Below are positions 416 through 20,059 of a DNA stretch of 20,439 nucleotides, piece by piece. Made by a program: the position numbers and the translations under genes. Origin of the DNA: a virus; IMG/VR virus record IMGVR_UViG_3300037245_000704, positions 1 to 20,439 of that record; one strand, written 5' to 3'. The notes below the pieces were generated by a model. The model saw only the letters and a program-made list of their open reading frames with translations, ran no database searches and was not told where the DNA came from. Positions within the stretch are counted from its first letter, which is position 1, and the number at the start of each line of letters is the position of its first letter.

Positions 416-1918
416 ATGAATAGTGGATTATTAACAGATGGATACAAACTAGGACATATCCATCAGTACCCTAAAGGTACAGAGTATGTTTACTCAAACT
501 TAACAGCTAGAAGCCTTAAGCATGCGCCTAAAGGAATAGAAAAAGTAACTGTTGCAGGTTCTCAAATGGCTGTTATTTTCTTAAAGAATCACTTTCAAGA
601 TAACTTTTTTAGAAAACCTAAAAATGTTGTTTGTAAGCAACTCAAAGAAGAAATCAGTGCTTATTTAGGTTCTCCTTACGATGTATCTCACTTTGAGAAA
701 CTACATGATCTAGGGTATCTACCAATAGAAGTTAAGTCTTTAGCTGAAGGTCAAGAAGTTAATCCTAAGATTCCTTTTATGACTATTCAAAACACAGAGC
801 CTGAGTTCTTTTGGATAACAAACTTCTTAGAGACTATTATCTCTTCTATGATGTGGATACCTGTCACTTCAGCAACTATAGCCACTCAGTACAAAAGAGT
901 GCTTACTAAGTGGGCTAAAAAGACAGACAAAAAAAACTTAGGTTTTGTTGACTTTCAAGGCCATGATTTCTCTATGAGAGGAATGGCTCCTCAAGCAGCA
1001 ATGCTTAGTGGTGTAGGTCATGCTTTTGCTTTTAGAGGCTCTGATACTTTACCCGTTATTCATGCTTTAGATAAGTATTATTTCTCTAAGAATGGAGAGA
1101 TAAACTCTGTAAATGCTACTGAACATTCTGTTATGTGTGCCGGTACTAAAGAGGACGAGTTAGGTACCTTTAAGTACTTGATGGAACAGTTCCCAACAGG
1201 GATCCTGTCTATCGTGAGTGATACTTGGGACTTATGGAAGGTTATAACAGAGATATTACCTCAGTTGAAGGATGATATCTTAGCTCGTGATGGTAAGATA
1301 GTTATCAGGCCTGATAGTGGAGATCCAGTTGATATCATCTGTGGATCATTAGACTGGAGTGTAGACACAACCATCCTTGGGGCGCCATTGAATCATGATA
1401 CAGACATGATAGACTCAGAGAAAGGTGTTATACAGTTATTATGGGAAATATTTGGAGGAACTACGAATGAACAAGGGTATAGAGTTTTGGATAGTCATAT
1501 TGGCGCCATATATGGCGACAGTATTACTCTTGATAGAGCTGAAGAGATCTGCAAGAGACTCGAAGCAAAAGGCTTTGCGTCAACAAATATCGTATTGGGC
1601 ATTGGCAGTTACACATATCAGTATAACACTCGTGACACTTTTGGTATGGCCGTAAAGGCAACATCAGTAGTTGTTAACGGTGAAAGAAGAAGTATCTTCA
1701 AAGACCCGGCAACAGATGATGGTACTAAGAAGTCAGCTCGTGGATTATTACGTGTTGATCATAAAGTAACTGGAGAGTTTGTTTTAAAAGATGAGTGTAC
1801 GGAAGAAGAAGAAAGAGGTGGTGAGCTTCGAACAATCTTTAGAAACGGTAGTTTAATGCTTCCGACTCTTTTAGAAGAAGTTAGACAAAGAGTAAACGAG
1901 AATGTACAACGCTCTTGA
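416..1918 (+). CDS. nadV: Nicotinamide phosphoribosyltransferase family (NAMPT/NadV or NARP1 Namat)
   Basis: This 500-aa protein is full length for the NAMPT family. The family joins nicotinamide to PRPP to make NMN; the phage Namat branch instead joins nicotinamide to ADP-ribose pyrophosphate to make NAD+ directly. Visible family residues: TDGYKLGH at 7-14 (D8, Y10), HDFSMRG at 183-189 (F185, R188, nicotinamide stacking and phosphate contacts), FRGSD ending at D210, ATEHS with H237 (the catalytic His position), SDTWD with D269, IRPDSGDP at 297-304 (R298, D300), YGDS with G367/D368, and GIGS...NTRDT with R406. No key residue is missing. Its end overlaps the HAD gene by 17 nt, and a PRPP-synthetase-like gene follows, which points to a shared NAD pathway. 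Family membership is certain, but substrate choice (PRPP or ADPR-PP) cannot be read from sequence alone. Arg codons shift from all AGA in the first half to some CGT after about 1270. Confidence 0.95.
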   Translation: MNSGLLTDGYKLGHIHQYPKGTEYVYSNLTARSLKHAPKGIEKVTVAGSQMAVIFLKNHFQDNFFRKPKNVVCKQLKEEISAYLGSPYDVSHFEKLHDLGYLPIEVKSLAEGQEVNPKIPFMTIQNTEPEFFWITNFLETIISSMMWIPVTSATIATQYKRVLTKWAKKTDKKNLGFVDFQGHDFSMRGMAPQAAMLSGVGHAFAFRGSDTLPVIHALDKYYFSKNGEINSVNATEHSVMCAGTKEDELGTFKYLMEQFPTGILSIVSDTWDLWKVITEILPQLKDDILARDGKIVIRPDSGDPVDIICGSLDWSVDTTILGAPLNHDTDMIDSEKGVIQLLWEIFGGTTNEQGYRVLDSHIGAIYGDSITLDRAEEICKRLEAKGFASTNIVLGIGSYTYQYNTRDTFGMAVKATSVVVNGERRSIFKDPATDDGTKKSARGLLRVDHKVTGEFVLKDECTEEEERGGELRTIFRNGSLMLPTLLEEVRQRVNENVQRS

Positions 1919-2288
1919 TTTAGATTATGGGGCAAGATTACGAGGAGACTATCTGAAACACGGTAGTCTCTTTGTTGCTTTTGATTTTGACAACACAGTG
2001 TATGATTATCACATGGCTGGTATTGATTACTCAGAAATCATTAACCTTTTAAAGGAGTGTTACGAACTTGATTTTACTCTTATACTTTTTACATCAAATG
2101 AAGGTAGAAAGTTAGAAGATGCAGAGTATTTCTTAAAAAACATAGGTGTTAAGTACAGTTATGTTAATGAGAATCCTGCATTCAAAACAAGAAAACCATA
2201 TTACAATGTCCTTTTGGACGATAGGGCCGGGCTCGTAGAGGCTTATACAATGCTACGAGAACTTATAGACGAAATACAAGATGAGTAA
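1902..2288 (+). CDS. HAD-superfamily hydrolase (small phosphatase), 128 aa
   Basis: This is a compact HAD-type phosphohydrolase. Motif I is DFDNT at 28-32 (nucleophile D28, general acid D30). Motif II is LFTSN at 62-66 (T64/S65). The motif III lysine is K95 or K98, and motif IV is LLDDR at 104-108 (D106, D107). At 128 aa there is little room for a cap domain, so it is a minimal HAD fold likely to act on a large or open substrate. It overlaps the upstream NAMPT gene by 17 nt and the downstream PRPP-synthetase-like gene by 8 nt, so translation is probably coupled. Sitting between two NAD-pathway genes suggests it dephosphorylates an NAD-related metabolite, such as a phosphorylated ADP-ribose or NMN. 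That is inference; a nucleic-acid 3' or 5' phosphatase is also possible. Confidence 0.85.
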   Translation: MYNALDLDYGARLRGDYLKHGSLFVAFDFDNTVYDYHMAGIDYSEIINLLKECYELDFTLILFTSNEGRKLEDAEYFLKNIGVKYSYVNENPAFKTRKPYYNVLLDDRAGLVEAYTMLRELIDEIQDE

Positions 2289-3057
2289 TCAAATGAAGAA
2301 GTTTAAGGACGGTCAGATCAATGTCTCTTTAAGCAAAGAAATAAAAGGAGTAATGGAAGTAGCCATAAGAGGTAATACTTACGAAGACTTGTTTGTTGCA
2401 GCTGCTTACAAGAATGCTATTGACTTTTCTTACAAAAAAGAAACTCAAACTGTCTTAAACATAATGTGTTTAATAGGCCAAAGATCAGATAGAAGGTTTG
2501 GTTTTTTCGAGTCTTTTGATTTACAAGTAGTTACTGACTTCATTAACTCTTTAAACTATGACATAGTTCAGGTATTTCACCCTCACAGTGAAGCGTCTAT
2601 AGGCATGATAAGAAACGGCATAGGGCTTTCTCCTTTAAAGTATATCGAAAAGTCTTTAGAAGATTTTGAAGATTGCTCTACTTTAGTTTCTCCTGATGCA
2701 GGTGCTTACAAAAGTGTAAAGGAATACGCAGAGCTATTAGGTGTTGATGTAGTTGCAGCCAACAAGATACGCGTAAACGGTGAGCCTAAGATAGAGTTTG
2801 CTTCTGACGTTAAAGACAAAAACTTATTGATAGTTGACGATCTAGCTGATGGAGGTAGAACTTTTGTTGCTTTAGCTAAAGAGCTAAAAGCTCAAGGAGC
2901 TAACGAAGTTAGGTTGTATGTTTCTCATGGAATGTTTCACTACGGTTTTGATGAGATCAAGAAAGAAATAGATCATGTGTATTGTAGTAACAGCTACAGA
3001 GATATCGAGGATGATTTTGTTACACAGTTTCAAGTAATACAGAATGGGAAAGATTGA
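2281..3057 (+). CDS. prs: Ribose-phosphate pyrophosphokinase-like (Prs or NARP1 Adps)
   Basis: This 258-aa protein belongs to the PRPP synthetase family, which transfers pyrophosphate from ATP to ribose-5-phosphate. In the phage NARP1 pathway the related Adps acts on ADP-ribose to give ADPR-PP. Visible motifs: QRSDRRF at 67-73 (the ATP-binding RQDRR segment), FHPHSEA at 99-105 (metal/ATP site His100, His102), VSPDAGAYKS at 136-145, a catalytic-loop-like NKIRVNGE at 161-168 (K162, R164), and the phosphoribosyl loop VDDLADGGRTF at 185-195. It is about 55 residues shorter than typical bacterial Prs (about 315 aa), and the N-terminal half has diverged, which may mean different allostery or substrate. 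ATG 2281 overlaps the HAD gene by 8 nt. A second Met at residue 5 is possible as the start. Being third in a module with a NAMPT-like gene supports the NAD role. Confidence 0.9.
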   Translation: MSNQMKKFKDGQINVSLSKEIKGVMEVAIRGNTYEDLFVAAAYKNAIDFSYKKETQTVLNIMCLIGQRSDRRFGFFESFDLQVVTDFINSLNYDIVQVFHPHSEASIGMIRNGIGLSPLKYIEKSLEDFEDCSTLVSPDAGAYKSVKEYAELLGVDVVAANKIRVNGEPKIEFASDVKDKNLLIVDDLADGGRTFVALAKELKAQGANEVRLYVSHGMFHYGFDEIKKEIDHVYCSNSYRDIEDDFVTQFQVIQNGKD

Positions 3058-4599: not shown

Positions 4600-4944
4600 G
4601 GGCCCGACCGGTATTGACAGGTTGACGGAAGGTATACAGGGGAGCGTGATGGAATGAGACACGCTAAAAACGTTCCGACTTAAATAAACGCAAACGTAGA
4701 AAATACAACTGAAGACGTACAAGGTATGGAGTCAGTACTTGCAGAAGCTAAGATCATTGCTTTAAATGATACAGTAGGGGTAGAGCCTGCAAGATTAGCA
4801 GCCTAAGTTGCTTAGTTCCTAGACTGTAAAACTAGGTGGTGGAAAGTTAACTTCGGTTGACCCTAGGTGGAGACCTTAAACTCATTCCCGATAACTGTAT
4901 ATGTGAAGCTTCGCTGGACCAGGGTTCGATTCCCTGCGGGTCCA
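4600..4944 (+). ncRNA. ssrA: tmRNA (SsrA) with an unusually long tag frame
   Basis: This is a complete one-piece tmRNA of about 345 nt. The acceptor stem GGGCCCG (4600-4606) pairs with CGGGTCC (4937-4943, one G-U), with discriminator A4944. CCA is not encoded. The T arm is CAGGG-TTCGATT-CCCTG (4920-4936). The reduced D region GGTATTGACAGG resembles canonical GGATTCGACGG. Helix P2 pairs 4632-4639 with 4895-4902. Pseudoknot PK1 is AGCGTG/CACGCT (4643-4648/4660-4665) plus GGAATG/CGTTCC (4651-4656/4671-4676). Downstream elements include CCTAG/CTAGG (4818-4822/4832-4836) and a UUCG-capped hairpin (4846-4861). The resume codon is GCA at 4690 and the stop is TAA at 4804-4806. The 38-codon tag begins ANVEN, as E. 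coli begins ANDEN, and ends ARLAA, against 10 codons in E. coli. The RNA would rescue stalled ribosomes with host SmpB; no smpB is seen here. Confidence 0.95.
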
Positions 4945-5079
4945 CGACTTAAGGTTGAAAGTCGATTTTACCAAGGTGGTAAGTGAAGACTAGAAGCTTT
5001 CGTCTAATGAAATGTCTTATGATTCTGCCTACTCCCGTTTGGGGGTAGGGAGATTGCTTTAATCATTAAAAAAAGTATT
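4945..5079 (+). other. Structured non-coding spacer after the tmRNA
   Basis: These 135 nt lack a convincing gene but contain several inverted repeats. CGACTT/AAGTCG (4945-4950/4959-4964, 8-nt loop, followed by ATTTTA) begins at the base after the tmRNA discriminator and could act as a weak terminator or a 3'-processing signal. TACC/GGTA (4969-4972/4978-4981) is short. A 9-bp G/C-rich hairpin, CCTACTCCC/GGGGGTAGG with loop GTTT (5028-5049), is the strongest element. I found no tRNA cloverleaf. The A7 run with GTATTATG at 5068-5082 forms the start region of the next gene. Confidence 0.6.
5028..5049 (+). terminator. Stable hairpin, possible terminator or RNA element
   Basis: Nine paired positions (one T-G wobble) close a four-base GTTT loop. 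What follows is GAGATTGCTTTAATC rather than a clean T run. It may therefore be a weak intrinsic terminator, a processing boundary or a leader structure of the small membrane gene that starts 31 nt later. Its position between the tmRNA and the next gene fits any of these. Confidence 0.4.
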
Positions 5080-16522: not shown

Positions 16523-17191
16523 ATGCACTCATATAAAGTAGAAATACCAGAGTATATTCGAGAAGTACAAGTATCGAAATCTCGTATGAAAAAATACTAT
16601 GAGTTTGCTAAAAAACACCCAAAAGCAGAAATATATAAAGACAGAAAAAAATACGATTGGAAAAAAGTAAAGGGGTTTGGAGAACGAAAGTTCTTAGTAG
16701 ATTTAAAAACAGGAGAAAGAGTTGTTGCTAACCCAAGGGCGGCAGGCACAGCTAAGTATGAAGTTATTAATGGTCAGAAGATATACAGCGGAATGGTTCA
16801 TCCAACTATGAGAGCTAGAATATTCTCTACATTGAAAGACTTTCTAAAGCCTTTTATGCAAAAGCTACCAAAGATCGATGCGCCGGTAAAGATACGTTGT
16901 GAGATTCATGATACTATTCGTGAAGCAAAATCAAAATCTTTATGGGACCTAGATAATAGAGGTTGGCCATACATAAAAGCTTTTCAAGATTTATTGGTAG
17001 ACCTCGAGGTTATTCATGACGACAATGTCTTGTTTATAACTGGATCAGGAGGTATTGAGTTTAATCCAGTATCTTCTAATGAAGAAAGAAAGCTGGTTTT
17101 TATTATTGAAAAAGAAACAGATAAAGCTGTTATCGCTAAATTAAACAAGGTAAAAGATGAAATGTCACGATTATCTAAAAGGAGTAAATAA
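16523..17191 (+). CDS. rusA: RusA-family Holliday junction resolvase-like, 222 aa
   Basis: RusA dimers cut four-way DNA junctions in recombination and concatemer processing. The C-terminal half carries the family signature: WDLDNRGWPYIKAFQDLLVD at 141-160, with D142 and D144 as the metal-binding pair and D156 as a further acidic residue, then VIHDDNV at 163-169. RusA itself is about 120 aa. The roughly 100 extra N-terminal residues are highly basic (MKKYYEFAKKHPKAEIYKDR) and may add DNA binding. The ATG directly follows the terminator T run; a Met at residue 22 is an alternative start. The end overlaps the MazG-like gene by 35 nt. Confidence 0.8.
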   Translation: MHSYKVEIPEYIREVQVSKSRMKKYYEFAKKHPKAEIYKDRKKYDWKKVKGFGERKFLVDLKTGERVVANPRAAGTAKYEVINGQKIYSGMVHPTMRARIFSTLKDFLKPFMQKLPKIDAPVKIRCEIHDTIREAKSKSLWDLDNRGWPYIKAFQDLLVDLEVIHDDNVLFITGSGGIEFNPVSSNEERKLVFIIEKETDKAVIAKLNKVKDEMSRLSKRSK

Positions 17192-17954
17192 TACGTTTAA
17201 ACATGACGACATGGCAAAAGAAGTTCTTCACTGTACTATGGCTATCCCTGAAGAACTAGGGGAGATCATGGGTTGGTTGAAGAAGCATTATGCTTATGGT
17301 AAGAGCAAAGATGAACGTTGGAAACTAGAAGTAACTCTCGAGCTAGGAGATTTGCTTTATTACACAACTAAACTAGCAGAGTTATCTAACAACTTAGAGA
17401 TAGTAGAAGGTTTTTTCGAAGAAAACGTAGACGTAGAAGTCGGTAAACTTTCTCATGAAGTTATATACACTGCAAGAATGATGAGGGAAACATCATCTTT
17501 AGTTGAATGTTCTTCATTGTCTGATGAAGTAAAGACAAGTCTAATGAATATCATGTATTTTATCATGGTGTTCGCGCACTCTAACAAAATCGAACTTGAA
17601 GACATTATTGTTGAAAACCTTAGAAAGCTTGAGGTTAGACATGGTAATAGCTTTAATATCGACTCTATACTTGAAGAAGGAAGAGACAGAGAAGCAGAAG
17701 CAAATGCTGGCACCGTAATGGTTAATGATGACCCTATAGAAGATTTCGTCATAACTAAAGAAATGAGCATGAAGATTAGGGCTCTAAGAAGAGAAAAAGG
17801 ATTAAAGCAATATGAGGTGGCTTTAATGTGTGGGATATCTCCTACAACTATTTCTCAAATAGAAACAGGCTCTATCACTCAGTCTGAGCAGTTTAGTTTT
17901 GTTTTGGGTATAGCTAAAGCATTAGATGTAGATGTAAAACAAATAATCAGCTAA
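17157..17954 (+). CDS. MazG-like NTP pyrophosphohydrolase fused to XRE helix-turn-helix, 265 aa
   Basis: The N-terminal part resembles the all-alpha NTP pyrophosphatase family (MazG/dUTPase-like), which hydrolyses nucleoside triphosphates to monophosphates. EELGE (E33, E36) and LELGDLLYY (E62, D65) give the ExxE...ExxD metal site. A second helical unit (80-170) ends with the family-like VENLRKLEVRHGNSFN. Residues about 205-265 form an XRE-type DNA-binding domain (IRALRREKGLKQYEVALMCG, then SPTTISQIETGS). The fusion suggests a nucleotide-sensing regulator or an enzyme tethered to DNA; this is inference. ATG 17157 is chosen because MKCHDYLKGVNNTF matches the usual MazG-like opening helix, even though it overlaps the previous gene by 35 nt. 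Confidence 0.8.
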   Translation: MKCHDYLKGVNNTFKHDDMAKEVLHCTMAIPEELGEIMGWLKKHYAYGKSKDERWKLEVTLELGDLLYYTTKLAELSNNLEIVEGFFEENVDVEVGKLSHEVIYTARMMRETSSLVECSSLSDEVKTSLMNIMYFIMVFAHSNKIELEDIIVENLRKLEVRHGNSFNIDSILEEGRDREAEANAGTVMVNDDPIEDFVITKEMSMKIRALRREKGLKQYEVALMCGISPTTISQIETGSITQSEQFSFVLGIAKALDVDVKQIIS

Positions 17955-18918: not shown

Positions 18919-19208
18919 GACAGGTAGATGAAGATACTCGTAATGCTTGGAGATTTGGTTACGAGATTTATATATCTTCTAACACTAAGACTAAGAAGAG
19001 GGGTAACACCCTCTTTCTTTATCTTCACGATAATCTTATAGCTAGAAAAACTGATGGTGTAGTAGAGATTAACGACTGTGGTTGGGGTACATCTGTTACT
19101 GCTAGAAGGCTATCAGCCATAACTGGAGAGAAGGTCTCATTCAGTAAAAAAGAAGACTTCTGTTTCTTCAGAGGTCAACCTATTGATAAAAAATGGATAA
19201 AAGTATAA
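18915..19208 (+). CDS. Hypothetical protein, 97 aa
   Basis: I do not recognise a named family. It is a small beta-rich protein with RFGYEIYISSNTKTKKRGNT, LFLYLHDNLIARKTDG and NDCGWGTSVTARRLSAITG, probably an antiparallel sheet followed by a helix. There is no catalytic signature, and its two cysteines are far apart. ATG 18915 overlaps the exonuclease stop (ATGA), and its end overlaps the radical-SAM gene by 16 nt, so it is translated in the same operon. Confidence 0.75.
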   Translation: MRQVDEDTRNAWRFGYEIYISSNTKTKKRGNTLFLYLHDNLIARKTDGVVEINDCGWGTSVTARRLSAITGEKVSFSKKEDFCFFRGQPIDKKWIKV

Positions 19209-20059
19209 AGAAAGTGACTAGGAAGTCTATCGACATCAGAGAATCTGGTCGTAGTACAGACTTTATAAGTCCATCCTTTGGTTTTGGTTGCTTACTAAAC
19301 TGTTCGTACTGTTATATGAAGCGTCATACTAACGACAACAGTTTAAGTGTAGCAACTAATACCAACTATATCCTCACCGCTATCAACAACCATGCTATGT
19401 GGCTAGGTCCAAAAGTTTCGAATCAGACTGATAAAGACTACTGGACTTACGACATAGCTTGTAACGAAGACTTTGCTCTGCATGCTAAATATCATCAGTG
19501 GAACCATATATTCAACTTTTTCAAGAATCATCAATCTATAAAGGCTAGCTTAGCTACCAAGATTGTTCCTGAAAAATTCCTTGAGTTTAACCCTGAAGGT
19601 AAGGTTAGAATACGGTTCAGTCTCATGCCGCAATCTATGAGCTCTATTGTTGAGCCTAACACTCCTCTCATTATTGACAGGATAAAGGCCATCGATAGAT
19701 TTATAGAAGCTGGTTATGATGTTCATATCAACTACTCGCCTGTCATAGTGACAGAAAACTGGTTAGATGAATATGAAAACTTATTTAGGTTAGTTGATAA
19801 TCATGTAAAAAACAAGAATAGCGTACTAAGTGAAGTCATATTTTTGACTCATAACGCCAAAAAACATGATCATAACTTAAAATCTAAAACACCAGGTGAG
19901 CACTTGTTGTGGAACCCTGACATACAAGAAGCTAAGACTTCTCAGTATGGAGGACACAACATAAGATATAAGCATGAGTTGAAAGCTGAGTATATCAAAA
20001 AGTTTAAATATTTACACAACCTTATAGTCCCTTGGAACAGAATAAGGTACATCTTTTGA
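19193..20059 (+). CDS. Radical SAM protein, spore photoproduct lyase-like, 288 aa
   Basis: This iron-sulphur enzyme uses S-adenosylmethionine to make a radical. The CxxxCxxC motif is GCLLNCSYCY at 32-41 (C33, C37, C40). The order of later segments (LATKIVPEKFLEF, VRIRFSLMPQSMSSIVEP, AGYDVHINYSPVIV) resembles spore photoproduct lyase, which reverts thymine dimers of the spore-photoproduct type. In a phage it may repair UV damage or modify another substrate; the extra cysteine typical of SPL (C141 in Bacillus) cannot be placed with confidence. It overlaps the previous gene by 16 nt and is followed 3 nt later by thyX. Radical SAM membership is firm; the SPL assignment is moderate. Confidence 0.8.
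   Translation: MDKSIKKVTRKSIDIRESGRSTDFISPSFGFGCLLNCSYCYMKRHTNDNSLSVATNTNYILTAINNHAMWLGPKVSNQTDKDYWTYDIACNEDFALHAKYHQWNHIFNFFKNHQSIKASLATKIVPEKFLEFNPEGKVRIRFSLMPQSMSSIVEPNTPLIIDRIKAIDRFIEAGYDVHINYSPVIVTENWLDEYENLFRLVDNHVKNKNSVLSEVIFLTHNAKKHDHNLKSKTPGEHLLWNPDIQEAKTSQYGGHNIRYKHELKAEYIKKFKYLHNLIVPWNRIRYIF

Follow-up and report, generated by a model that had tools for sequence, protein, structure and literature searches.

The tmRNA rescues stuck ribosomes and marks the unfinished protein for destruction, and the tag that it encodes is normally a short degron, usually of about 10 residues. The tmRNA gene on the IMG/VR virus fragment IMGVR_UViG_3300037245_000704 (positions 1 to 20,439, 20,439 bases, hereafter the window) contains a tag frame of 38 codons, which raises the following questions: whether this frame is the tag of a working tmRNA, whether such length is peculiar to the locus, and what the long middle of the tag could be for.

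A cmscan of the window with Rfam models yielded a full-length match to RF00023 at 4600-4947 on the plus strand (71.5 bits at a gathering cut-off of 47 bits, E 2.6e-26, model positions 1-374), corresponding to a one-piece tmRNA gene of the standard form at 4600-4944 (+). The architecture proposed in the first-pass annotation of this DNA was borne out for the acceptor stem, the T arm and PK1 by the RF00023 alignment and by sequence pairing, and the gene end it gave, 4944, is correct, this position being the discriminator A73, followed by ACGA. The parts of the gene are the following.

4600..4606 (+), 5' strand of the acceptor stem, GGGCCCG, pairing with 4937-4943 and including the G3-U70 wobble (RF00023 alignment and sequence pairing)
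4607..4621 (+), D-loop-like segment ACCGGTATTGACAGG of the tRNA-like domain (RF00023 alignment)
4643..4676 (+), PK1, in which AGCGTG 4643-4648 pairs with CACGCT 4660-4665, and GGAATG 4651-4656 with CGTTCC 4671-4676
4677..4689 (+), spacer GACTTAAATAAAC between PK1 and the resume codon, fitting the upstream consensus
4690..4806 (+), tag frame, 38 codons (4690-4803) and the stop codon TAA 4804-4806, peptide ANVENTTEDVQGMESVLAEAKIIALNDTVGVEPARLAA
4708..4776 (+), middle of the tag, predicted as a helix at residues 7-29 (AlphaFold2, single sequence)
4797..4812 (+), P5-type hairpin AGCAGC-CTAA-GTTGCT with the stop codon TAA in the loop (RNA fold)
4813..4880 (+), downstream region, the usual place of PK2-PK4, through which the RF00023 alignment passes with low posterior probability
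4920..4936 (+), T arm CAGGG-TTCGATT-CCCTG with perfect pairing (RF00023)
4937..4944 (+), 3' strand of the acceptor stem, CGGGTCC, and the discriminator A73; CCA is not encoded

The tRNA-like domain thus comprises a T arm and a 7-bp acceptor stem with G3-U70, the alanine identity pair; the variant ATTGACAGG in its D-loop-like segment is common to the window and other viral tmRNAs. The two 6-bp helices of PK1 were read from the sequence (the nested fold program cannot draw pseudoknots), at a location consistent with RF00023, and end 13 nt upstream of GCA 4690. Directly 5' of this codon there is an A-rich stretch of the usual type, and the codon itself is aligned to the resume GCA of RF00023, so that the covariance model and the earlier reading of the sequence agree on the resume site; the register of the alignment and the translation likewise confirm the 38-codon frame from GCA 4690 to TAA 4804. 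The frame has a hydrophobic end, RLAA, and closes within a 6-bp hairpin (4797-4802 with 4807-4812; -6.1 kcal/mol for 4792-4815), and the stop codon of the E. coli tmRNA also sits at such a hairpin loop. In the region 4813..4880, the folding was no better than that of shuffles. Judged by its anatomy, the tmRNA appears intact and should work as such.

One could suppose instead that the tmRNA is decayed or inactive and the open frame is accidental, as 71.5 bits is modest compared to 100-200 bits for bacterial tmRNAs, and a frame of such length alone is not rare by chance: when the stretch downstream was dinucleotide-shuffled 20,000 times, 3.2% of the shuffles had an open frame of 38 codons or more. 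In the same shuffles, the chance of an AA end was 0.11%, and of both jointly, 0.01%. The phage and IMG/VR searches provided no close relative for testing decay of the 38-codon segment. Since the acceptor stem, G3-U70, the T arm, PK1, the resume consensus, the stop hairpin and the LAA end are all intact, we consider decay very improbable.

Immediately 3' of the tmRNA, a stretch of 136 bases (4944-5079) folds better than expected (z -3.45, none of 200 shuffles being equal) and contains a long hairpin, CCTACTCCCGTTTGGGGGTAGG. The Rfam scan yielded no fitting family for it; it is possibly a processing element, a terminator or another RNA. The promoter and terminator scans gave no result.

The length of the tag was read differently by ARAGORN, the usual annotation tool, which found the gene but took as resume codon an internal GCA, 51 nt downstream, and reported 21 residues. 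Were this call right, the tag would be truly short, starting at GCA 4741, and the resume codon would lie 142 nt from the start of the gene and about 64 nt past PK1, whereas in long-tag and normal tmRNAs alike it is situated about 80-98 nt into the gene. GCA 4690, not 4741, is chosen by the covariance model and also by the upstream consensus, and the same internal-GCA type of error is made by ARAGORN in the Cellulophaga phages phi40:1 and Calle_1, and in L098, L168 and L177. Hence the short tag is hardly credible. In general, ARAGORN shortens or misses most tags longer than about 30 codons, and the class of long tags is thus hidden by annotation.

The middle of the 38-residue tag is probably helical: its composition is rich in helix formers, and in the AlphaFold2 model of the single sequence, which is of moderate confidence, residues 7-29 form a helix (pLDDT about 84 at residues 11-20), so that the helical mini-domain suggested in the first-pass annotation holds as a model. 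The layout had been described there as an insertion into the canonical tag ANDENYALAA. The canonical start, the long middle and the LAA end stand, but the insertion does not; an extended tag fits better, because the middle differs among phages and no short-tag parent was found.

We consider it reasonably probable, at about 0.6, that the tmRNA of the window is functional and that its tag is an extended, bipartite degradation signal, in which the RLAA end is combined with a probably helical middle acting as a second recognition element. The host would charge the phage tmRNA with alanine, G3-U70 being present; the charged tmRNA, presumably together with SmpB, would enter ribosomes stalled on broken mRNAs, alanine and the 38 encoded residues would be added to the unfinished protein, and termination would occur at TAA 4804. 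The RLAA end would then be recognised by a ClpXP-type protease of the host, presumably resulting in degradation, and the middle could serve as the second element, through which a protease or adaptor, of the host or of the phage, recognises or engages the tag. The RLAA end is also found in Bacteroidota host tags, e.g. DNNYSYRLAA, and, as the replication proteins encoded in the window are closest to those of crAss-like phages, which have Bacteroidota hosts, the tag end is most simply read as a ClpXP-type degron. The involvement of SspB, also suggested earlier, is unsupported, since crAss-like phages infect Bacteroidota and SspB is a proteobacterial adaptor.

The first-pass annotation had known of no tmRNA with such a layout; however, long tags recur across phage tmRNAs. 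In an IMG/VR sample picked solely by the T-arm sequence, and hence blind to the tag, we observed 35 distinct one-piece tags, of which 24 were of 9-16 residues (any host sequence among the IMG/VR contigs would raise the number of short tags) and 11 of 21-45 residues, with none of 17-20. The resume sites were called with a weight matrix, for which 28 short AA-ending tags called by ARAGORN had served as the training set. The phage G tag is apparently misplaced by this caller, and individual calls of the survey can therefore be wrong. In the control set of 90 Bacteroidota bacterial sequences there were 81 tmRNA calls, 79 of them confident and of 9-10 residues and two failed one-residue calls, while nine sequences gave no call. 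Thus, within the samples read here, long tags mark phage tmRNAs.

Tags were also collected via a neighbouring gene, that of nicotinamide phosphoribosyltransferase: seven of the 80 viral records so fetched had a tmRNA above the Rfam cut-off, two of them sharing one tmRNA, and the six distinct tags were of 49 (L217, GNIDNDAQEVVDINYTFSTPMMVVHKGERKSVSPSQDLSWGTRQVAIAA), 26 (L213 and L214), 25 (L211), 21 (L212), 12 (L216) and 9 (L215) residues. Among these lengths, the 38 residues of the window tag are towards the upper end but still within the range.

In the window, the nicotinamide phosphoribosyltransferase gene belongs to a NAD-salvage set at 416-3057, together with genes for a small phosphoheptose isomerase-like protein (PHROG name) and ribose-phosphate pyrophosphokinase; these genes are also adjacent to each other in other viral contigs. 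The frame at 17157-17954 combines a MazG-like stretch (near the cut-off) with a C-terminal helix-turn-helix domain, and 19193-20059 encodes a radical-SAM protein matching the Pfam spore photoproduct lyase family (76 bits), a possible phage DNA-repair enzyme.

To compare frames, 16 long tags were hand-picked for length, which biases the contrast in open length but not in Ala-Ala ends. The median open length was 28 codons in the tag frame versus 6 and 4 in the others; the tag frame ended in Ala-Ala in 10/16 cases and in Ala in 14/16, and each of the other two frames ended in Ala-Ala in 0/16. A few long tags have ends other than AA (LVTV, AAV, VGV). The G3-U70 pair is present in all 70 of 70 long-tag tmRNAs. 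A gene for SmpB was present in two long-tag phage contigs and was not found in the 20-kb fragment of the window.

Several other forms of tmRNA were encountered. The 484-kb uncultured phage genome LR756508 (L387) carries a full tmRNA with a 36-residue tag and, at 1501-1612, a 112-base element (58 bits) that matches a tmRNA only at the tRNA-like ends and resembles the tag-less tmRNA of phage DS6A. Permuted tmRNAs were seen in the viral contigs L186, L187, L198 and others, with tags of 25-30 residues by ARAGORN, e.g. ANAKAITTEAEVMTFTWDLPANESRYALAA. The gut crAss-like phages cr50_1, cr125_1, cr114_1 and cr10_1 (L493-L496) have permuted two-piece tmRNAs, whose tags of 13-14 residues are related to each other and have the form GN[NF][FY]VTDYT.., and the permuted tmRNA of Chryseobacterium phage MA9V-3 (L497) has a 17-residue tag.

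One family of long tags is large enough for an analysis of selection. In IMG/VR, at least 120 stretches matched a DNA pattern encoding T-F-E-D-A-x-x-F-V, and at least 117 of these, in viral contigs, continue as a short Ala-ending frame. The weight-matrix caller yielded 42 distinct TFEDA tag sequences in complete tmRNA genes, and Rfam, further TFEDA tmRNAs above its cut-off; the tags are of 22-34 residues, mostly 23-25, with the core TFEDA[MLI][SA]FV. Among 84,980 bacteria and archaea (one genome per species) the pattern occurred in 21 stretches, all within ordinary or unrelated frames, and none of these was a tmRNA tag. As the search itself could force conservation of the searched core, the latter was left out of pN/pS, which was 0.45 outside the core for 25 distinct 24-residue sequences and 0.25 for the C-terminal part; in the smaller 23-residue subset the constraint outside the core was weaker (0.76). 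Thus, the TFEDA peptide itself is under purifying selection.

These data bear on the possibility that the long middle is a flexible spacer, the length of phage tags being loosely limited and their function depending on nothing but the first residues and the AA end. The middles of long tags are mostly unrelated to one another, the whole tags span 21 to 49 residues, and proteases can engage a substrate more easily through a long unstructured lead, all of which would suit a spacer. On the other hand, the middle of the TFEDA tag is nearly invariant while synonymous sites vary, in at least 117 viral contigs, and the Bacteroidota host tags stay at 9-10 residues, and hence we regard a mere spacer as rather unlikely. 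The selection seen in the TFEDA family supports a role of the middle there, and the middle of the window tag may have a role likewise.

The tag could also direct proteins to a fate other than degradation, such as sequestration, membrane targeting or assembly, via the helical middle. A phage could gain from a tag unlike that of the host, and none of the bacterial tmRNAs in the genomes scanned had the TFEDA tag, but the retention of the terminal Ala and Ala-Ala in most of the hand-picked long tags makes this improbable. We hence keep to the bipartite degradation tag.

The T arm of one TFEDA tmRNA matches annotated tmRNAs of cultured phages. Among these are the Cellulophaga phages phi40:1 (KC821612) and Calle_1 (NC_062744), where the one-piece tmRNA has, from the consensus resume site, a 30-residue tag, GNNTNAVNAQIEANMEAVNAILNLEVAVGV. 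Streptomyces phages among the same matches have tags of 11-13 residues, and thus long tags are not universal in phages.

The relation of the window tag to the others was considered separately. By eye, there is a tempting likeness, TTED/TVEE/TAED/TFED, among the tags of the window, L213, LR756508, phi40:1/Calle_1 and the TFEDA family, and the window tag starts with ANVE, as some TFEDA members do, with TTED at the position of their TFED. Homology of the window tag to any of these was rejected, as the results of shuffling were not significant after counting the comparisons; the comparison of L213 with one TFEDA tag (p 0.003) was one among several shuffling tests and is suggestive only. Membership of the window tag in the TFEDA family was rejected as well, the core S[TSDA][FMW]TFEDA[MLI][SA]FV being absent and the pairwise similarity not significant. 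Neither the window nor its tmRNA stretch had a match among annotated phages; the exact resume-region DNA had none in IMG/VR, the window tag and the TFEDA tag had none by tblastn against phages, and no IMG/VR relatives were found for the helicase neighbouring the tmRNA.

More broadly, it is conceivable, and we put it forward tentatively, that many phages swap the ten-residue host tag for a phage-specific one of 21-49 residues, whose conserved middle recruits a specific protease or adaptor of host or viral origin. If so, infection would redirect the fate of all stalled-ribosome proteins, and the window tag would be one of the longest examples. A large viral class of long tags, with one family conserved as a peptide and not found in bacterial tmRNAs, suggests that phages gain from a tag of their own, and the cultured long-tag phages phi40:1 and Calle_1 open the question to immediate testing.

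Long tags as such were already known, in Mycoplasma and in the mycobacteriophage Bxz1; what seems new is how common and long phage tags are, the virus-only conserved family, and the systematic shortening by ARAGORN. Phage tmRNAs and SmpB are reported in a survey of huge phages that used ARAGORN (PMC7162821). According to passages of the 2025 tmRNA database paper, phages contribute 79 of the 97,179 sequences in the database, the commonest tag length being 10 residues and the shortest reported 2, and those passages contain no discussion of long phage tags (PMC11915505).

Compared to known systems, the window tmRNA shares with the standard E. coli-type tmRNA (ssrA, RF00023) the acceptor stem with G3-U70, the T arm, PK1, the resume GCA, the stop codon in a hairpin and the LAA end, and differs from it in the tag of 38 rather than about 10 residues, the absence of an encoded CCA and the lower model score. 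The TFEDA-tag tmRNAs are similarly viral and one-piece, with long tags and canonical ends, some beginning with ANVE, whereas the window tag lacks their core. Cultured phages phi40:1 and Calle_1 are Bacteroidota phages and have, like the virus of the window, a one-piece tmRNA and a long tag shortened by ARAGORN, but their tag ends in VGV and has no demonstrable relation to the window tag. Bxz1 also has a phage tmRNA with a long tag, which is, however, shorter (about 25 residues), and it is an actinophage. Long tags are found in Mycoplasma and Mesoplasma too, where they are about 26-27 residues, and a title by Ge and Karzai, cited in PMC3985003, reportedly speaks of multipartite recognition of the extended Mycoplasma-type tag by Lon. 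Passages of PMC3985003 state that these tags end in AFA and that the hosts lack ClpXP. The window tag ends in RLAA, has no demonstrable sequence likeness to them and is accompanied by replication proteins closest to those of crAss-like phages, and its assignment to the Mycoplasma type was rejected; by analogy, the extended Mycoplasma tag with Lon may nevertheless be regarded as the nearest functional precedent for the bipartite reading.
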